Made by a program: the position numbers and the translations under genes
Notes under the pieces: model-generated
What the model was told of the DNA's origin: nothing
Seen by the model: the letters and a program-made list of their open reading frames with translations, nothing else
Database searches by the model: none
DNA from: a virus
Virus record (IMG/VR): IMGVR_UViG_3300042894_001438
Span: 1-23,616 of that record
Reading direction: 5' to 3' (one strand)
DNA length: 23,616 bases
Part shown: positions 3,445 through 23,533 of the stretch, piece by piece
Position numbering within the stretch: position 1 is the first letter of the stretch
Layout: each line of letters starts with the position of its first letter

Positions 3445-5049
3445 ATGAAAACTGACTCAATTGTTGTGTTAGGCGGCGGCTCTGCCGGATGGATGACTGC
3501 CGCAACATTAATTAAAGCATTTCCAAATAAAAAAATAACAGTTGTAGAATCTGAAAATATTCCGATTATTGGTGTTGGTGAATCCACATTGGGACAAATT
3601 AGAAGGTGGACTCATTTCATAGGGTTAGATGAAAAAAGTTTTTTCCCTCATACTAATGCTTCAATTAAAATGAGTATTAAATTCACAGACTTCTATAAAA
3701 AAGATTCGGGATCATTTCATTATCCTTTTGGTGGTCCTATTTCGATAGAAAACAGAAATCCTTATCAGGATTGGCATAGAAAAAAATATTTTTATCCTGA
3801 AACTGAGGTTACAGATTTTACTGAATGTTTATTTTCAGCATCAGCACTTTATACCAATAATAAATTTTCTCTTAATTTAGATGGTAAATTAGATAATTTT
3901 AATCCTAATACAGATTACGCATATCATTTTGATGCGGTTCAATTTTCAAATTGGTTGCGAGAAAATTATTGTTTACCTAAAGGAGTCAATCATATTGTAG
4001 GTACAGTTAAAGATGTTATCACAAATGAAATGGGAATTGAAAAGTTAATTTTAGAAGATGGAACCGAAATAACATCAGATTTATTTGTAGACTGTACTGG
4101 ATTTAAAAGTATGCTTTTGGGTGAAGCACTTAAAGAACCGTTCGAATCTTATTCTGATATGCTACCCAACAATAAAGCATGGGCAACAAGAGTTCCATAT
4201 AAAAACCGTTCCGAAGAACTTGAAGGATATACAAATTGCACAGCCAGACAAAATGGATGGTGTTGGAATATTCCTCTTTGGTCTAGATTAGGAACAGGGT
4301 ATGTTTATTCCGACAAATTCGTAACTAAAGAAACTGCACTAGAAGAATTTAAAGAATATCTAATGTCAGATAAAATGACTATTCCTAGAACAAGAGAAGA
4401 TGTAGATTCTTTTGAATATAAAGAAATTGACATGAGAGTTGGAATTCACAAAAGAACATTTGTGAAAAATGTTGTTGCCATTGGACTTTCTGCTGGATTT
4501 ATTGAACCGCTTGAAAGTAATGGGTTGTTCAGCGTCCATGAATTTTTATTTAGACTTTTAGACATTTTACAACGAGATACAATTAATCAATTTGATAGAG
4601 ACATGTATAATGTTAGTGTCAAGGATTTGTTTGATGGATTTGCTAAATTTGTAGTATTACATTATGCACTATCACATAGAGATGATTCCGAATATTGGAG
4701 AGCAATACAAAATAAGTCATTCGTTGATGCTAAAACAAATGAGCCATATACCCAACACGTTACTAGAGCAGATTGTTTTTATAACATGATTTGGAGATAC
4801 ATGACCAATTGGGGACATACTACAAACGATAATGCAGGTATAACATACATTTCTACGGGAATGAATTTATTTATGGCTAACGACCAACGATTGAAATCCT
4901 ATGAACTTCATGTTAAACCGATAAATGAACTTAAATTGGAAATTGATGAAATGAATAATCTTTGGAATTATAAAAAGGCTGAATGGAAAAAAGTTGCCGA
5001 TTCTAGTCCAACAATTGAAGAATATTTAAAAACAACATTCTACTCCTAA
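3445..5049 (+). CDS. flavin-dependent tryptophan-halogenase-like enzyme
   Basis: A 534-residue FAD-dependent halogenase (PF04820 type). The FAD-binding GGGSAG is at residues 10-15. The catalytic lysine corresponding to PrnA Lys79 is K75 in ASIKMSIKF. The halogenase signature WxWxIP is W272-C-W-N-I-P277. The halide-site loop PLExxG is present as PLESNG (355-360), with Asn where PrnA-type enzymes have Thr. VirX1 of cyanophage Syn10 is a known viral member that prefers iodide, so phage carriage is not unique. Its substrate here is unknown. It needs reduced FAD, presumably from a host reductase. The gene begins two bases after dsbA and interrupts the 45-dsbA-44 cluster. Three sampled 60-base lines are 20-30% GC against about 42% in a gp44 line, and it uses AGA for Arg where gp44 favours CGT, suggesting recent acquisition. 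Confidence 0.93.
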   Translation: MKTDSIVVLGGGSAGWMTAATLIKAFPNKKITVVESENIPIIGVGESTLGQIRRWTHFIGLDEKSFFPHTNASIKMSIKFTDFYKKDSGSFHYPFGGPISIENRNPYQDWHRKKYFYPETEVTDFTECLFSASALYTNNKFSLNLDGKLDNFNPNTDYAYHFDAVQFSNWLRENYCLPKGVNHIVGTVKDVITNEMGIEKLILEDGTEITSDLFVDCTGFKSMLLGEALKEPFESYSDMLPNNKAWATRVPYKNRSEELEGYTNCTARQNGWCWNIPLWSRLGTGYVYSDKFVTKETALEEFKEYLMSDKMTIPRTREDVDSFEYKEIDMRVGIHKRTFVKNVVAIGLSAGFIEPLESNGLFSVHEFLFRLLDILQRDTINQFDRDMYNVSVKDLFDGFAKFVVLHYALSHRDDSEYWRAIQNKSFVDAKTNEPYTQHVTRADCFYNMIWRYMTNWGHTTNDNAGITYISTGMNLFMANDQRLKSYELHVKPINELKLEIDEMNNLWNYKKAEWKKVADSSPTIEEYLKTTFYS

Positions 5050-12518: not shown

Positions 12519-13016
12519 ATGAAAATTGGATTTCAATGTTCATCGTTTGACATGTTACACGCAGGTCACATAACGATGTTGAAGCAAGAGAAAGAATTGT
12601 GCGACTACCTAAAGGTCGCACTTCAAGTTGACCCGACAATCGACAGACCGGGAATCAAAAACAAACCTGTGCAATCTGTATATGAACGTTATGTACAATT
12701 GCAAGCGGTAAAGTATATCGATGAAATCTTGGTATACGAAAGTGAAGAAGACCTACTCAATCTCATTAAGACGCAAACGATGCACATTCGTTTTCTAAGT
12801 GAAGAATATAAGGGTAGAGATTTCACAGGAAAGCAGTTTTGTCTTGACAATGAGATAGAATTGTATTATCATGTAAGACAACACAAATATAGTTCTACGG
12901 AAATTCGTAATCGTACCTTTGAATATGAATTAGCAAAGCGTAACGAAAAATTAACGAAAGAACCGTTGGGACAATATTCACCCGATTTATTGAAAAAGTA
13001 TGGAGAAAATATATGA
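12519..13016 (+). CDS. glycerol-3-phosphate cytidylyltransferase-like nucleotidyltransferase
   Basis: A 165-residue member of the HxGH nucleotidylyltransferase superfamily (TagD/RibL/GlmU-C-like). The catalytic H14-A-G-H17 follows the first beta strand ([12 protein letters not shown]). The second signature (S/T)STEIRNR is near residues 124-130. It would couple CTP (or ATP) to a phosphorylated small molecule; TagD uses glycerol-3-phosphate, but substrate residues cannot be judged here. Located between polymerase and uvsX, it may feed glycan or cofactor chemistry rather than replication. A second, divergent HxGH-type domain occurs at the start of the protein at 18589. It overlaps uvsX by ATGA. 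The ribosome-binding site is weak. Confidence 0.8.
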
Positions 13017-17173: not shown

Positions 17174-17181
17174 TATAAATA
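17174..17181 (+). promoter_or_regulatory. T4-type late promoter
   Basis: Perfect TATAAATA. The 15-bp string AGGTAATTATAAATA (17167-17181) is shared with the late promoter at 18518. Initiation is expected near 17187. Confidence 0.85.
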
Positions 17182-17206: not shown

Positions 17207-18433
17207 ATGTTTAAATTTAAAGAATACCTTATTGAAAAGAAAAACACTCACATGGAACATGCGGAAGACGATGTTCTTAATGGTGGTGTTGAAGGAACTA
17301 GAGATAGCATAAACGCACTCAGAGCGGTGCGTGATATGCTTGCTGGACATTCCAAAAGCAAAGTTGACATTTCAGTCAAATGGGATGGTGCGCCAGCAGT
17401 CTTTGCAGGACAAGACCCAACAGACGGCAAGTTCTTTGTTGCGAAGAAGGGTGTCTTCAATAAAAATCCCAAAGTATACAAAACTCCAGCAGATATCGAT
17501 GCAGACACTTCTGGTGACTTAGCAGATAAACTCAAAGCGTGTTTGATGTATTTGCCTAAGATTAACATCAAAGGCGTCATTCAAGGCGACTTGCTATTCA
17601 CACAATCAGACTTGAAGACAGAAACAATCGAAGGTGAATCATATGTCACGTTTCACCCAAATACATTAGTGTATGCAGTACCGACAGGAAGTGAACTTGC
17701 TAAAGAGATACAAAGAGCGAAAATTGGCATTGTATGGCATACAATTTACGAAGGCGACACATTCGAAACAATGTCAGCAGTCTTTGGTAAAGACATTCTA
17801 AGCACACTTACAAAGACACCAAACGTTTGGATGACAAGTGCAGTCTATAAAGATGTGTCAGGTAAAGCTACGTTGACACAAGCAGAGACTGACAATGTGA
17901 CAGCAATTCTATCCGAAGCTGGAAAGATATTCCAAAAACTAGATGCCGCTACTCTAAACTATATCAATACAGACGAAGACTTGATTGAACGCATCAAGAC
18001 ATTCAACAATTCAAAAGTACGTCAACAGTTGAAAATCACTAACGTCAAAACGCACGTTAAAGAATTAATCACATACATAGAAGATTACTACGAGAAACAA
18101 GCCGAGGGCAAAGGTGAACGTGGTCGTGCCACTCAGATGCTAAAGAAAAGTAAAGTGCTTAGATTCTTCTCACCAAAAAACAAATCACATTTAGAAGACA
18201 TTTTCACAATGATGAATCTTTTAGCAGAAGCTAAGTTGATTTTGATTAAGAAGATGGATGAAGTCAAGACGTTGAATACTTTCTTGTTGACAAAGAAAGG
18301 TTACGAAGTGACTGGTGTTGAGGGTTATGTTGCTATCGATAAGATTAAAGGCAATGCAGTCAAGTTAGTTGACAGAATGCAATTCAGCTACGCAAACTTC
18401 TCACCTGATGTTATTAAAGGTTGGCAGAGGTAA
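17207..18433 (+). CDS. DUF6267-like late protein with ligase-like KxDG motif
   Basis: A 408-residue protein of a family (DUF6267 as I recall it) common in T4-like cyanophages. Residues 1-11 (MFKFKEYLIEK) match the T4 capsid-targeting sequence MKTYQEFIAE/A in register, with a prohead-protease-type LIE site at 8-10. K58-W-D-G61 followed by APAVF resembles motif I (KxDG) of covalent nucleotidyltransferases (DNA/RNA ligases). G127-D-L-L-F could be motif III. The C-terminal third is helical and lysine-rich. It is expressed from a late promoter and has no Shine-Dalgarno; the initiation site is guarded by a hairpin. An internal head protein with ligase or nucleotidyltransferase activity is inferred. 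A purely structural head component is the alternative. Confidence 0.7.
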   Translation: MFKFKEYLIEKKNTHMEHAEDDVLNGGVEGTRDSINALRAVRDMLAGHSKSKVDISVKWDGAPAVFAGQDPTDGKFFVAKKGVFNKNPKVYKTPADIDADTSGDLADKLKACLMYLPKINIKGVIQGDLLFTQSDLKTETIEGESYVTFHPNTLVYAVPTGSELAKEIQRAKIGIVWHTIYEGDTFETMSAVFGKDILSTLTKTPNVWMTSAVYKDVSGKATLTQAETDNVTAILSEAGKIFQKLDAATLNYINTDEDLIERIKTFNNSKVRQQLKITNVKTHVKELITYIEDYYEKQAEGKGERGRATQMLKKSKVLRFFSPKNKSHLEDIFTMMNLLAEAKLILIKKMDEVKTLNTFLLTKKGYEVTGVEGYVAIDKIKGNAVKLVDRMQFSYANFSPDVIKGWQR

Positions 18434-18517: not shown

Positions 18518-18525
18518 TATAAATA
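18518..18525 (+). promoter_or_regulatory. T4-type late promoter
   Basis: Perfect TATAAATA in the 155-base gap before the gene at 18589, with initiation expected near 18531 and a leader of about 58 bases. The rest of the gap holds a small hairpin GGTTT/AAACC (near 18438-18452) and the palindrome ATGTATACAT (18463-18472), with no T-tract terminator or ORF. Confidence 0.85.
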
Positions 18526-18588: not shown

Positions 18589-21339
18589 ATGAAAACATTC
18601 AAGGCTTCTTTAACAGAAGCAACAAAATCGCAAGTTGTAGTCTCATTTGGGCGCATGAACCCAATGACAAACGGCCACGAAAAACTTGCCGACAAAATCA
18701 AAGCAGAAGCAAAAAAGCGTAACGCTGATGCTAAACTGTATCTATCGCACAGCACAAATCCAAAAAAAGATCCACTAGACTTTAAGACTAAAGTTAAGTT
18801 TGCAAAGAAAGCATTTGGACCAATGGTTCAAAATTCTGTTGCAAGAACAATCATCGAAGTTGCTAAAGAACTTACTGGCAAGTATGATGATTTAATTGTT
18901 GTTGTCGGTAGTGATAGAATACCTGAGTTCAAGGCTTTACTTAATAAGTACAATGGAAAAGATTTTACTTTTAAAACTATTGAAGTTGTCTCAGCAGGCG
19001 AACGTGATCCGGATGCAGAGGGTGTCTCTGGTATGTCAGGTTCTAAAATGCGTGGGTTTGTTACATCGGATGACTTCAATAGTTTTAAACAAGGTGTGCC
19101 ATCAAAATTATCTGACTCGGATGCCAAAGCATTGTTTGATGCAGTTAAAAGGGGAATGAATTTGAAAGAAGAATTAGAACAACAAGACGAAGCGGTTCTT
19201 GGCTATGCACAACGTAGACAAAGAGCGCAACAATTCAAACGAATTCAAAAGCGTTTAGTGAGAGCAAGAGCATTACAAGCAAAACGTTTTGCTGATCCTA
19301 AGAGATTAAAAAGAAGAGCCGCTAAGATGGCATATCAATTCTTCAGAGGTCGCCTTGCTGGTGGTAAGAACTATGCAGACTTGAGTACTGGAGAGAAAAT
19401 CACAGTAGACACAAGATTACAGAAGATGTTGCCTGCAATCAGAAAGTTTGCAGTACGTTTAGTGCCAGCCGCTAGAAGTAAAGAGATTATGCGTAAACAA
19501 AGCATGATGATGCGAAAAGAAGATTTGAATCATATGTTTGCAGACTTCATTGTTGAAAAGCCAACTCTACCGCAAGACAAAGATGTTGCGAAGAAAGACG
19601 GAACGCAACCTAAAAAGTATTACACTGGTTTAGATAAAGATACGAAAGACGCTAGAGCATCACACTTTGCAAGAACTGGACCAAAATCAGATTCTGATAA
19701 GAGTGCATACAAAGATGCGCCTGGTGACAAAGAAGCTAGAGAAAAAGGTATGCAACAATCAAAGCATACACTCAAGTTCAAACAGATGTATGGTGAAGCA
19801 GTAAAGACACCAGAGGTCAGAAAAGAAATTTCTAGATTAGATCAATTGGTTCGTTTGGGATTAGCAGACACTAAATCTCTTGCAGTCATTAAACGTTCTG
19901 TTGAGAAATTAAAATCTGGCGATATGTTAAATCCGTCAGAGCGCAATGTCACAAATGACTTGTTGACAACGTTACTTGATATGGTAACTTCAAGCGATGC
20001 ATTGTTTAGAATGACAAAGACGCAGTTACAAAAAGAATCTATTGATGAAGCCGCATACAAAGGCAACATTGGTGCAATGGAGATGATGAAGTTCTTCCAA
20101 GTTGCAACACCACAAGAAAAAGAAAAACTCAAAAAACTTATTGCAGATAAAAATCAATCAGCCGCTTGGAAAATGATTCAAGACGTTACTGGTATGAAAC
20201 TCATGGGCGAAGAAGATGAGTACGATGATAGCGACTATGATGAGACTGATGGTCTTTCAATGGCGCAAATCGAAGTGTCTAACATGATTCAAGATGCAGA
20301 AGAATTGCTTGACATGATGGAACAAATGGACGAAGAGCCAGATGCTTGGGTTCTATCTAAGATTACTAAGGCTGCCGATTACGTTTCAACAGTACGTGAT
20401 TACTTAGAATTCGAAGGCGACTTTGATTATCAAGATGATGACGAAGAAGGTAATGGCGAAGATGACGATGGTGAATTTACTGGTGCAGAATTGGACATGT
20501 ATGCAAGTGAAATGGAACCAGATGAGTTTGGTGACGCATACGAAGAATTCAAGCCAATCTTAGAAGAAATCGAAGGCTTGAAAAAGAAATCAGAAAAGTC
20601 TGGCATTGCTTACAGTATTCTCAAAGCAGTTTACGACAGAGGCATGGCGGCTTGGCAAGGTGGGCATCGTCCTGGAACAACACCACAACAATGGGCATTT
20701 GCTAGAGTGAATTCATTCATCACAAAAGGTTCTGGCACTTGGGGTAAAGCAGATAAAGATTTAGCGGCTAAAGTAAATAAGAATGAAGAGTTCTCTAAAT
20801 TCGCTGAAGCATTAGAGTGGGGCACAGATGCGATGCGTCAAAAGTATGCCGCAGACACACCTGGTCAACCAACAGATGTTCAAGTTGCCGCACATCAAAC
20901 AGAAGATGCATGTTGCGATGATTGCTTAGAAGAAGGTTCAGACGGCAGTACATGTTGGGATGGATACAAACAAGTTGGAACTAAGATGAAGAACGGCAAG
21001 AGTGTTCCAAATTGCGTTCCAGCTAACGAAGAAGTTGCAGAAGAAGTTGATTGGGAACAAGTTGTCAACGAAGCAGAATATCAAGGTAAGTCTGTTAAGT
21101 TGAATGATCCATTCAGAACACCTGATGGTCCAAAGAAGTTTGGTGTATACACTATGGGACCAAATGGTAAAGTTGTTGTCGTTCGATTTGGTGATCCCAA
21201 TATGGAAATCAAACGTGACGATCCTGAACGTAGAGCAAGTTTCAGAGCAAGACATGGTTGCGATAATCCTGGACCAAAGTGGAAAGCAAACTACTGGTCG
21301 TGTTATCAATGGCGTGCTGGTTCTAACGTAGATAGTTAA
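18589..21339 (+). CDS. modular late protein with N-terminal nucleotidyltransferase domain
   Basis: A 916-residue protein of the type annotated 'cytidylyltransferase' in cyanophages. Residues 1-11 (MKTFKASLTEA) match the T4 capsid-targeting sequence, with the protease-like site LTE/A at 8-11. Residues about 15-200 are a nucleotidyltransferase fold: first strand VVVSFGRMNP, the T27-N-G-H30 variant of HxGH, and SGSKMR near 150 as the second signature. Then come a very basic segment (about 205-330), a KPTLPQDKD...KYYTGLDKDTKDARASHF module, a helical region, an acidic stretch, a GIAYSILKAVYDRGMAAWQG module, a Cys-rich CWDGYKQVG module (about 789) and a terminal IKRDDPERRASFRARHGC domain. Candidate cleavage sites xxE/A occur at E201, E403, E487, E740 and E828, near module borders. 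It is transcribed from the late promoter at 18518. Confidence 0.75.
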   Translation: MKTFKASLTEATKSQVVVSFGRMNPMTNGHEKLADKIKAEAKKRNADAKLYLSHSTNPKKDPLDFKTKVKFAKKAFGPMVQNSVARTIIEVAKELTGKYDDLIVVVGSDRIPEFKALLNKYNGKDFTFKTIEVVSAGERDPDAEGVSGMSGSKMRGFVTSDDFNSFKQGVPSKLSDSDAKALFDAVKRGMNLKEELEQQDEAVLGYAQRRQRAQQFKRIQKRLVRARALQAKRFADPKRLKRRAAKMAYQFFRGRLAGGKNYADLSTGEKITVDTRLQKMLPAIRKFAVRLVPAARSKEIMRKQSMMMRKEDLNHMFADFIVEKPTLPQDKDVAKKDGTQPKKYYTGLDKDTKDARASHFARTGPKSDSDKSAYKDAPGDKEAREKGMQQSKHTLKFKQMYGEAVKTPEVRKEISRLDQLVRLGLADTKSLAVIKRSVEKLKSGDMLNPSERNVTNDLLTTLLDMVTSSDALFRMTKTQLQKESIDEAAYKGNIGAMEMMKFFQVATPQEKEKLKKLIADKNQSAAWKMIQDVTGMKLMGEEDEYDDSDYDETDGLSMAQIEVSNMIQDAEELLDMMEQMDEEPDAWVLSKITKAADYVSTVRDYLEFEGDFDYQDDDEEGNGEDDDGEFTGAELDMYASEMEPDEFGDAYEEFKPILEEIEGLKKKSEKSGIAYSILKAVYDRGMAAWQGGHRPGTTPQQWAFARVNSFITKGSGTWGKADKDLAAKVNKNEEFSKFAEALEWGTDAMRQKYAADTPGQPTDVQVAAHQTEDACCDDCLEEGSDGSTCWDGYKQVGTKMKNGKSVPNCVPANEEVAEEVDWEQVVNEAEYQGKSVKLNDPFRTPDGPKKFGVYTMGPNGKVVVVRFGDPNMEIKRDDPERRASFRARHGCDNPGPKWKANYWSCYQWRAGSNVDS

Positions 21340-21355
21340 TAAGAGAGAGATACAA

Positions 21356-23533
21356 ATGACTGATAAAAATATACAAGAAGCAGAAGTTGGTTCAGGCACA
21401 AAAATTTCAGATGTAAAGCAATCTGAGAAACGTGCCCAATTGACATTGAAGTCAATTCAATTGCGTTTAAAGCAAGAGAAAGAACGTGCCGCACTTCAAC
21501 AACAAAAGAAATCTTTGCGTGTCAAAGAAGACATTGGTGAATCATTTAGTCCATCTCAGATTGCCGCTTTGAAAGCAGAGTACTCTAAGATTAATACAGT
21601 TGATCCATCAAGTGACACATACAAGAAATTAATTGCTATGCTTGATAGATTAGATTTGAAATCTTTACAATCTCTTGCTGGCGCTGAAATCAAGTTTGTG
21701 TCTAAACTCGCACAGAATCGTGTCGCTAGAAAAAACATGAAAGAAGAAGTGCAACTTGACGAATTATCAAACGAGAAACTAGCAGACTACAAAAAGAAAG
21801 CTGGCGCTGATGCAACGGCTGCCGACAAAGCAGGCGACACTAAAAAGGGTAACAAGCGTTTCTCTGGCATTATGAAAGCAACCAGAAAGCAATTCGACAA
21901 TGACTCAAAGAAAAGTGTGTCAGAGGCTTCACAAAGAGTTGACTCACTTGTGACTGACGCATTAAAAGTGATGCAAGGCTCAGAATTAAAAGATGCTGTG
22001 CAAGCACTAAAGACTGTGCTTGGAGATAGAGAATACAATGACCGCCGTGGCCACTACAATTTCTATGTCAAACAATTGGTTGATATGTATGGTAAGAAAA
22101 CAAACGAAGAGTTGTCGCCAAAACAAAAAGCACTAGACAAGAACAAGAACGGCAAGATTGATGGTTCTGATTTAGCAAAGTTGCGTGGTGAAGAATTATC
22201 AGCAAAACAAAAAGCGTTAGATAAGAACAATAATGGCAAGATTGATGGTAGCGACTTAGCGCATCTACGTAGCAAAAAGAAACAACCACAAGGTGCTGAC
22301 TTTGCCGCACAAAGACGCAAAGAAAGAATGGCGTCAAATGGTCGTATGGATGAAGAGTCTATCAATGAAACAGGTGGACCAAAAGTTTTTCAGAAAGACA
22401 ACAAGCACATTGAAAAATATTCTGATGATAAATTTTGGTTATATGTTGACAATAAAAAGACTAAAGAATTTTCATCTTTAGAAATGGCAAAGGCTGCCGC
22501 ACTTAAAGAACATTTCGACTTGCAAGAAAAGTCTGACTACGAAGTTTATCACAAAGACTATTCTGGTGCAGTACAGACAGCTATCAAGCAAGCAGAGAAG
22601 CGTGGCTATGAAGTAGACATGGATGATTGGCACGACAAAGTTGCTACTGGTCCTAAGAAGCCATCGTCTGGTAAAACAAATTCATTCTCAATCAATTTGA
22701 TGAAAGATGGCAAACCATCTAAGAAGAAATTGCAAATGCAAGTGTACAACATGGACAATCAAAAGTATGAATTGAACATGTACATTGAATCTGTAGAAGA
22801 AGCGGCATCACCTGCACAGCAAGCCGCTATTGCTATTGCGATGAAGAAGGCTGGTAAGAAGCCAAAAGACATGAAAGAGAGTGACGCATACGACAAAGAC
22901 GTTAAGCCAAGCGACAAGCCACATGATAAAGATGCGGCCGCCAAACGTGCAAAGCTAGCCGCATTAGCCGCTAGAAAGAAAATGGCTGAAGGTCTAATGG
23001 ATAAGATTAAAGCTATCAAGCGTGGTATGCAAGCTAGAGATAAAGCAGATGACCATTGGGACAAAGCTGGCGACCCAAAGAATCCTGAAGCGAAAAAGGA
23101 TTTGAAGAAAGCAGTTCGCTATACTAATCTTTTAAATAAAGAAGAGAATGGACCAACACTTAATCCAGTTACAAAGCATGTCACTAAAGGTGAATTGTCT
23201 AAGACTGGCATCTCAAAGTGGTTGGCTCAGTCTATGAAAAAAGAAGAGAAAGTTCCTGAGTTTAAGTCTGGCGGTCCAGAATTAGCTAAGAAGTTTAATA
23301 AGTCATTCAAAGCATTGGGCGTTGACGCTAAAGTTAAAATCAAAACAGTTGGTAACGTTTCTGTCAATGAAGAAGAGATTGTAGAAGCTAAAAAGAAGTC
23401 ATGGAAAGACATGAGAAAAAAGACAAAGAATGAAGAAGTGCCTGACAAGGCCACAGTTAAAAAGGGTGATGCATTGACTGGTAAAAGAGAACCAATCGAA
23501 ATCAATCCTGAATTGAAAGACATGGCAAAATAA
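21356..23533 (+). CDS. modular head-associated protein with EF-hand-like repeats
   Basis: A 725-residue, Lys/Ala/Glu-rich late protein related in style to the preceding one. The N-terminus MTDKNIQEAEVG has an IQE/A protease-like site at residues 6-9. A module LDELSNEKLADYKKKAG...RFSGIMKATRKQF (about 126-180) is one I associate with putative prohead/head proteins of T4-like aquatic phages. Two tandem 28-residue repeats follow, each with a DKNxNGKIDGSD loop (D261-D272 and D289-D300). Further [IVL]xE-type sites recur (LDEL, VSEA, INET, VEEA, IVEA), often just before a new module. The ribosome-binding site is GAGAGAGA upstream of 21356. Function is unknown; I infer a scaffold or internal head polyprotein processed by the prohead protease. 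Confidence 0.6.
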   Translation: MTDKNIQEAEVGSGTKISDVKQSEKRAQLTLKSIQLRLKQEKERAALQQQKKSLRVKEDIGESFSPSQIAALKAEYSKINTVDPSSDTYKKLIAMLDRLDLKSLQSLAGAEIKFVSKLAQNRVARKNMKEEVQLDELSNEKLADYKKKAGADATAADKAGDTKKGNKRFSGIMKATRKQFDNDSKKSVSEASQRVDSLVTDALKVMQGSELKDAVQALKTVLGDREYNDRRGHYNFYVKQLVDMYGKKTNEELSPKQKALDKNKNGKIDGSDLAKLRGEELSAKQKALDKNNNGKIDGSDLAHLRSKKKQPQGADFAAQRRKERMASNGRMDEESINETGGPKVFQKDNKHIEKYSDDKFWLYVDNKKTKEFSSLEMAKAAALKEHFDLQEKSDYEVYHKDYSGAVQTAIKQAEKRGYEVDMDDWHDKVATGPKKPSSGKTNSFSINLMKDGKPSKKKLQMQVYNMDNQKYELNMYIESVEEAASPAQQAAIAIAMKKAGKKPKDMKESDAYDKDVKPSDKPHDKDAAAKRAKLAALAARKKMAEGLMDKIKAIKRGMQARDKADDHWDKAGDPKNPEAKKDLKKAVRYTNLLNKEENGPTLNPVTKHVTKGELSKTGISKWLAQSMKKEEKVPEFKSGGPELAKKFNKSFKALGVDAKVKIKTVGNVSVNEEEIVEAKKKSWKDMRKKTKNEEVPDKATVKKGDALTGKREPIEINPELKDMAK
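22106..22273 (+). repeat. tandem 84-bp repeat encoding EF-hand-like loops
   Basis: Two units (22106-22189, 22190-22273) encoding EELSxKQKALDKNxNGKIDG followed by SDLAxLR. Codons differ synonymously between copies, so this is an established duplication maintained at protein level. Each loop has Asp/Asn at EF-hand/dockerin positions 1, 3, 5, 9 and 12. Confidence 0.85.

Follow-up and report, generated by a model that had tools for sequence, protein, structure and literature searches.

Multi-Enzyme Chains of a T4-Like Phage Appear to Carry a Head-Packing Tag and Protease Sites Between Their Parts

Results

Gene Organization

The window analyzed in this work is a DNA stretch of 23,616 nt (23.6 kb) from the IMG/VR virus record IMGVR_UViG_3300042894_001438. 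After the T4-type replication genes (clamp, clamp loader, RegA, DNA polymerase, UvsX, and gp41 helicase), its distal end encodes, in order, a DUF6267 protein, a 916-amino acid (aa) protein that includes a nucleotidyltransferase (NTase), and a 725-aa protein (Table 1). The comparison of these proteins with their relatives suggests that the phage makes multi-enzyme chains with a T4-type head-packing tag and protease cut-sites between the parts. Judged by the 916-aa protein, the closest annotated phages are HTVC008M, which infects Pelagibacter, and the Methylophilales phages Melnitz; in both, the corresponding cluster is likewise located after gp41.

The first-pass annotation had proposed two long modular proteins at positions 19150-23500, and both open reading frames (ORFs) proved real, but the first of them starts 561 bases earlier. 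All the sites listed there were found, i.e., QDE/A at E201, YGE/A at E403, IDE/A at E487, FAE/A at E740, and VNE/A at E828 of the 916-aa protein, and IQE/A (E8), VSE/A (E190), VEE/A (E482), and IVE/A (E677) in the 725-aa protein (the slash marks the predicted cut). The list was incomplete, since LTE/A at E10 of the 916-aa protein, the end of its N-terminal tag, had been overlooked.

The 916-aa protein consists, in order, of a peptide resembling a capsid-targeting sequence (CTS), an NMNAT-like NTase, a QRRxRA module, a module ending in MYGE, a GNIG module, DUF5824, and a C-terminal EYQGK module. The NTase carries TNGH at residues 27-30, a form of [HT]xGH, which we take to be the motif of the NMNAT-like cytidylyltransferase superfamily. 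It matches the phrog_3041 cytidyltransferase profile (E 2.8e-83), whereas the PF01467 score of 16.1 bits lies under the Pfam cut-off of 21, so the superfamily assignment holds on the phage profile only.

N-Terminal Peptides

The internal head proteins of T4 were used for comparison. IpI begins with MKTFKEFTSTTTPVSTITE/A (MKTFKEF...ITE/A), and both ipII and ipIII with MKTYQEFIAE/A. In the CTS of IPIII, targeting depends on residues 4 and 7, processing on residues 8 and 10 (PMC9026906). The N-termini were compared with a pattern of an aromatic residue at position 4, a hydrophobic or aromatic one at 7, a hydrophobic one at 8, and Glu at 10. The DUF6267 protein, beginning with MFKFKEYLIE/K, fits all four positions. 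In an alignment of 19 sequences, none departs from M1, F4, E10, and KWDG at residues 58-61, and the first three are the sole invariant positions within residues 1-10. The window NTase (MKTFKASLTE) fits positions 4, 8, and 10. The 725-aa protein has a shorter leader only, MTDKNIQE/A, in which the four-position pattern was not found; its site at E8 is canonical, that is, has the form [LIMV]xE/A, in 19 of 21 distinct homologous contexts.

The exact-spacing template M..[FY]..[FYLIMHW][LIMVF].E at the ORF start was adopted because a looser motif ([LIM]xEA anywhere in the first 26 residues) catches unrelated genes; the latter matched 9 of 264 T4 ORFs, five of which encode head core or internal proteins (ipI, ipII, ipIII, gp68, and gp22). 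The template opens 20 of 1307 non-redundant ORFs from 225 loci, compared with 0.89 expected from its internal rate. Counted by source, it was found in 21 of 1140 ORFs of the NTase/DUF6267 loci (plus L001 and L002) and in none of 298 ORFs of the gp21 loci. The ORFs bearing it are diverse and encode, besides DUF6267, a P-loop kinase (L051), an NT5C-type nucleotidase (L066), and a polynucleotide-kinase-like protein (L077). The NTases of P-SSM2 (MKSFSQFLTE/T) and S-CREM1 (MKRYTNFLSE/A) also open with it. No enrichment of the CTS was detected at the C-termini, where it was present in none of the 128 cargo proteins and in 4 of 617 others against 3.3 expected.

Two small proteins drew attention during these searches. 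The virion-labelled gp93 of S-SCSM1 (69 aa; L236, 10508-10717) has a CTS-like TFKEFLEYIE at its C-terminus. T4 gp61.1 (54 aa; NC_000866, 18966-19130; L088) starts with MKTFKEFIKE/D, a near-perfect CTS, and might be an internal head protein of T4 that has escaped notice.

Late Promoters and Virion Association

The octamer TATAAATA, which we assume to be the T4 late-promoter core, occurs in three copies in the window and in none on the minus strand. Two of them immediately precede the DUF6267 gene and the NTase gene. Within 120 bases upstream it accompanies 35 of 45 distinct NTase genes, compared with 64 of the 1073 remaining genes; the counts for other classes were 20/51 (DUF6267), 6/18 (other strict-CTS genes), and 11/123 (other cargo genes). 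Late transcription of the DUF6267 and NTase genes is predicted by this arrangement.

NTases have been reported in purified virions of S-SM1 (PMC3037559), S-SCSM1 (PMC9602691), and S-CREM2 (PMC10665884). All three start with a tag, MKKFSAFLNE/A, MKSFLQFLKE/A, and MKNFSSFLTE/A, respectively. In the S-SCSM1 record, seven of the nine consecutive genes 89-97 are labelled as virion proteins, and two of these, 89 and 91, have an N-terminal xxE/A tag.

These proteins might instead be soluble late enzymes of NAD (nicotinamide adenine dinucleotide) synthesis and nucleic-acid repair that co-purify with virions without being head cargo. Virion proteomics can include contaminants, a translational repressor is also labelled a virion protein in the S-SCSM1 record, and carry-over is left as a possibility by the S-SCSM1 and S-CREM2 authors (PMC9602691, PMC10665884). 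Co-purification would nevertheless have to be reconciled with the CTS on each of the three NTases of the virion proteomes, with its absence from the cytidylyltransferase-like gene of the replication cluster in the window, and with the run of seven virion-labelled genes out of nine in S-SCSM1. We consider it very unlikely, whereas targeting of the proteins to the head is, judging by their sequences, highly probable.

Sites Within the Chains

Iterated BLAST from the two long window proteins gave 420 related proteins, which were reduced to 128 representatives; the family-wide counts of internal sites leave out the first 15 residues. In the two window proteins, E/A pairs are as frequent as in shuffled sequences (8 vs. 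6.5, P 0.31, in the 916-aa protein and 5 vs. 5.6, P 0.67, in the 725-aa protein). EA pairs with a hydrophobic or aromatic P3 residue number 5 vs. 1.7 (P 0.026) and 4 vs. 1.25 (P 0.037), respectively, these P values being uncorrected for five patterns tried. Since E/A pairs are at the chance level, the two proteins alone are insufficient, and it is the family-wide enrichment that makes the case. The 128 representatives contain 124 [LI]xE/A sites against 43 after shuffling (2.9 times over-represented, z 14), whereas the control motifs, reversed AEx[LI] (43 vs. 44) and [LIMV]xDA (72 vs. 76), stay at the shuffled level. In 388 other proteins from the same contigs, [LI]xE/A was counted 75 times against 67. 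The typical internal site reads EEVE[LI]DE/A.

The sites are concentrated where modules meet. A module border was defined as the start of homology preceded by unrelated upstream sequence, and the region from -10 to +8 around each of 1106 distinct borders was searched. [LIMV]xE/A was present at 18.4% of the borders, compared with 6.6% expected. Of 960 pairs, 62 had sites in both partners at one and the same aligned offset, against 0.24 expected, while the reversed motif and the D, K, and S controls gave 0 or 1.

Such counts could also arise from acidic, Ala-rich linkers between recombining modules with no protease involved, the likeness to the T4 CTS then being a convergence. Acidic linkers do contribute, since [LIMV]xE/E is enriched as well (198 vs. 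79, with 185 vs. 119 in the other proteins), and clustering by context shrinks the enrichment to 68 [LI]xE/A against 28 reversed motifs. The chance-level EA counts in the two proteins and the many other Glu residues in low-confidence parts of the model (see below) fit this explanation too. The lack of enrichment of the reversed, D-, S-, and K-for-E motifs at module borders and of [LI]xE/A in the other proteins of the same contigs does not fit it, nor do the 20 N-terminal templates against 0.89 expected or the late promoters, so we regard a mere linker effect as most improbable.

The AlphaFold2 model of the 916-aa protein was poor, with a predicted local distance difference test (pLDDT) of 65 and a predicted template modelling score of 0.29, and had a beads-on-string look. 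E10, E201, E403, E487, and E740 fall in stretches with pLDDT <50, and the remaining two EA pairs (E40 and E382) lie outside such stretches. The idea that the sites lie near module edges agrees with the model for four of the five originally listed sites and not for E828. As 30 of the 63 other Glu residues of the protein are likewise in stretches of pLDDT <50, the model by itself is weak evidence for site placement.

Conservation allowed the individual sites to be graded. Among the candidate cut-sites, the homologous contexts give good support to E487 and E828 of the 916-aa protein and to E8, E190, and E482 of the 725-aa one, and less to E201 and E740 of the former and E677 of the latter. The three sites deviating from the T4 pattern, for which a relaxed specificity had been suggested, fared unequally: QDE/A at E201 is canonical in 7 of 32 contexts, FAE/A at E740 seldom has a canonical form but keeps E/A, and YGE/A at E403, canonical in none of its contexts, was rejected.

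For reference, the propeptide of the major capsid protein in related contigs ends in F[LM]xE in 31 of 34 distinct contexts, the others being YLAE/A, YLQE/A, and MLSE/V. Ala occupies P1' in only 21 of the 31 and therefore seems preferred but not required, consistent with LIE/K in the DUF6267 protein.

Modules Found Both Alone and Inside Chains

Several modules occur both as separate proteins and as parts of longer chains. The one that follows E828 (AEYQGK...) was found alone behind a CTS in two loci, as MLTFTQFIAE/AEYQGKK in L070 and MLKFSDYVRE/ATYQGKK in L071. Internal copies have a site at the very residue where the stand-alone tag ends in 9 of 10 contexts for L070 and in 6 of 7 for L071. Further modules with such coincidences were L056 (4/4), L058 (3/4), L024, L031, and L035 (4/6 each), L060 (8/18), the first module of the 725-aa protein (7/9), the AMSPAQQAA module of Melnitz (5/10), and the NTases of L097 and L126 compared with the DUF6267-NTase fusions of L119 and L124 (2/2). 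Cutting of both forms would yield an identical mature N-terminus. One entry of the stand-alone list, L093, was a false case, a truncated DNA polymerase ORF.

Alternatively, gp21 may remove a genuine CTS but leave the internal sites uncut, these being relics of the fusion of once separate CTS-bearing genes and the cargo remaining full-length and multidomain. The existence of stand-alone CTS-bearing versions of several modules agrees with this, as does the joint of the L119 and L124 fusions, which keeps MKESFI[KR]E/A like a swallowed CTS, and T4 internal proteins lose mostly terminal propeptides. However, F/Y at P7 is kept in just 18 of 199 internal sites while [LIMV]xE/A is retained, an acidic stretch precedes 114 of the 199, and the sites persist beside unrelated upstream sequence. 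Loss of the CTS aromatic residue with retention of [LIMV]xE/A is expected under selection on cutting, not on targeting. We therefore think targeting without internal cleavage unlikely, and cutting at the internal sites fairly likely from the sequence patterns.

The DUF6267 Protein and Other Features

Pfam lists DUF6267 as a family of unknown function. The model of the window protein (pLDDT 81) has a disordered N-terminus, with residues 1-14 at pLDDT <50. In the VIA-align search, all 50 listed rows were RNA, tRNA, or DNA ligases; the best match had Z 9.1 and a root-mean-square deviation of 3.8 over 183 residues, and T4 Rnl1 and Rnl2 scored 8.5 and 8.0. The KWDG of the protein corresponds to KxDG, presumably the nucleotidyl-lysine motif of the ATP-dependent RNA/DNA ligase superfamily. 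There is thus a strong lead, from the model, that DUF6267 is a ligase-superfamily enzyme; it is a lead and not proof, because Foldseek gave no match with E <0.001. No paper on DUF6267 was found in the open-licence PMC literature. In two loci (L119, 8674-12813, and L124, 10001-14155), DUF6267 and the NTase are fused into one ORF of ~1380 aa, with a joint that resembles a swallowed CTS and would still be cleavable.

The 725-aa protein contains two EF-hand/dockerin-like repeats (DKNKNGKIDGSDL and DKNNNGKIDGSDL; window 22127-22267, residues about 258-304), all under the Pfam family cut-offs, and comparable DxDxDGD stretches recur in relatives. Elsewhere in the window, a tryptophan-halogenase-like gene (phrog_2928; 3445-5049) lies between the clamp and clamp-loader genes, and a second cytidylyltransferase-like gene (phrog_7878; 12519-13016), located among the replication genes, is without a CTS-type N-terminal extension.

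Table 1. Location of the predicted genes, modules, promoter cores, and sites in the window.
Feature	Position	Strand	Basis
TATAAATA, T4-type late-promoter core	17174..17181	+	33 bases upstream of DUF6267 start
DUF6267 protein, 408 aa, ligase-like fold, CTS-like N-terminus	17207..18433	+	PF19782, 362 bits
Putative CTS-like targeting peptide of DUF6267 protein, residues 1-10	17207..17236	+	Exact-spacing template; conservation
TATAAATA, T4-type late-promoter core	18518..18525	+	71 bases upstream of NTase (916-aa) start
916-aa modular protein	18589..21339	+	ORF, family profiles, site contexts
CTS-like peptide MKTFKASLTE, ending at predicted cut-site E10 (LTE/A)	18589..18618	+	Canonical in 11/21 contexts; compared with T4 ipI, ipII, ipIII
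NTase module, residues 11-201	18619..19191	+	phrog_3041, E 2.8e-83; ends at E201
E403 (YGE/A), unconserved	19795..19797	+	Canonical in 0/26 contexts; ends recurring KFKxM[YF]GE motif
E487 (IDE/A), predicted internal cut	20047..20049	+	Canonical in 13/18 contexts; [LIMV]xE in 18/18
DUF5824 domain, residues 664-724	20578..20760	+	PF19141, 69.3 bits, cut-off 25
E740 (FAE/A), E/A kept with Phe at P3	20806..20808	+	Canonical in 2/21 contexts
E828 (VNE/A), predicted internal cut preceding 88-residue C-terminal module	21070..21072	+	Canonical in 20/23 contexts
725-aa modular protein, N-terminal site IQE/A (E8), EF-hand/dockerin-like repeats	21356..23533	+	ORF, Pfam
E190 (VSE/A), predicted internal cut	21923..21925	+	Canonical in 4/4 contexts
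E482 (VEE/A), predicted internal cut preceding SPAQQAAIA module	22799..22801	+	Canonical in 11/20 contexts; stand-alone form in Melnitz phage
E677 (IVE/A), possible internal cut	23384..23386	+	Canonical in 9/21 contexts

Discussion

The best reading of these results, and in our judgement a reasonably probable one, is that the proteins are head cargo polyproteins targeted by a CTS and processed by a prohead protease of the gp21 type. The suggestion of head-located polyproteins in the first-pass annotation, made from the protease-type sites, has gained from the CTS, the late promoters, the detection of orthologues in virions, the enrichment at module borders, and the modules that occur in two settings, although the sites turned out to be uneven in quality. 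The DUF6267, 916-aa, and 725-aa proteins would be late-expressed internal head proteins of this T4-like relative of HTVC008M and Melnitz. In the first two, the N-terminal peptides would act as T4-type CTS docking the proteins in the prohead core, while the 725-aa protein would have just its short leader, which ends in a gp21-type site. As the head matures, the prohead protease would remove the CTS and also cut the [LIMV]xE/A sites in the linkers between modules, which would turn the long chains into separate small proteins, i.e., the NMNAT-like NTase along with a number of short modules. The mature products would remain with the DNA, enter the next host, and act ahead of phage gene expression, when the NTase might supply NAD and the ligase-like protein might repair ends.

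Several findings weigh against this reading. Position 7 of the window NTase peptide is occupied by Ser, which is neither aromatic nor hydrophobic. The template is missing from the NTases of Cr30, PHA46, and Callisto, the NTase of HTVC008M (MKTLKELLRKK) has no site, and about half of the NTase relatives begin at the enzyme domain, without a CTS or an upstream in-frame ATG. The comparison of stand-alone and internal modules failed for L084 (0/3), L036 (0/2), L010, L011, and L017 (0/1 each), L125 (0/7), L001 (0/5), L105 (1/6), L111 (1/7), L147 (1/6), L029 (593 aa; 1/10), and L033 (1/5), with a few more modules at 0 or 1. The prohead protease gene was not found in the 23.6-kb fragment with a family model that was also silent in all control genomes; the protease is annotated in the complete relatives Melnitz-2, HTVC008M, S-SCSM1, and S-CREM2. 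Finally, the observations comprise the motifs, their positions, conservation, and enrichment, the promoters, and the published virion association of orthologues, whereas targeting, cleavage, packaging, and injection of these proteins, like their function in the host, are inferred.

The NTase relatives devoid of CTS may be targeted via another module, or they may be unpackaged; most NTase genes carry the late promoter although about half of the NTase relatives have no CTS. The motif KFKxM[YF]GE, found 13 times in the 128 related proteins and never in 617 others, has CTS-like spacing and may be a candidate alternative targeting element for the CTS-less NTases.

CTS and gp21 are already known from T4. 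IPI, IPII, IPIII, and Alt share with the proteins described here an N-terminal peptide with an aromatic residue at 4, a hydrophobic one at 8, and Glu at 10 before Ala, the late promoter core, and gp21-type sites, and orthologues of the present proteins have, like them, been reported in virions. The T4 internal proteins differ in giving mostly a single product, Alt being cut at both ends (PMC5694885), whereas here several enzymes or modules with multiple internal sites stand in one chain, and the mature parts have no visible sequence kinship. Multiple gp21-type sites per chain and cutting into several fragments are also features of the T4 scaffold and core proteins gp22, gp67, and gp68. Those scaffolds, however, are mostly degraded and lost, while the sites reported here separate conserved domains. 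The complete relatives also have gp22 homologues, encoded by genes of their own.

Among known concepts, the polyvalent proteins of phages and conjugative elements come closest to packaged multi-enzyme chains; they are long multidomain enzyme proteins for which packaging and injection are predicted, some of them with proposed proteolytic processing (PMC5512222). The 916-aa protein resembles them in uniting the NTase, DUF5824, and further modules on one chain. The available text of that work ascribes the processing to the proteins' own peptidase domains and does not name CTS or gp21-type sites (PMC5512222). In the 916-aa and 725-aa proteins, large parts of which match no family, the Pfam scan listed no peptidase domain. 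The ejection proteins of the giant phages phiKZ and SPN3US are likewise internal head proteins whose propeptides are cut after a Glu-ending motif by a gp21-related protease, but their propeptides are long, the motif is different (AxE in SPN3US), and no string of modules separated by sites is described in the part of the source consulted (PMC7411985).

In the open-licence PMC literature, no report was found of a CTS on these proteins or of cargo polyproteins processed by a prohead protease, and capsid targeting was mentioned together with cyanophage only in the T4 review PMC9026906. The authors of the virion proteomes left open why NMNAT-like enzymes recur in cyanophage virions (PMC9602691, PMC10665884), and a T4-type targeting peptide would explain their presence.

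More tentatively, and with somewhat less than an even chance of being right in full, we propose that in Kyanoviridae-type and related T4-like phages any enzyme or small module that follows a CTS or an EEVE[LI]DE/A linker may be packaged, released by the prohead protease, and injected. The cargo might then constitute a first-minutes kit for nucleic-acid repair and counter-defence before transcription, including the NMNAT-like enzyme (NAD supply), DUF6267 as an RNA/DNA ligase carried in the virion, and proteins resembling polynucleotide kinase and nucleotidase. The targeting peptide would predict, from sequence alone, further injected proteins among the uncharacterised ones of these phages. If true, polyprotein processing by the prohead protease would put head maturation to a new use, with several enzymes delivered as one gene product.

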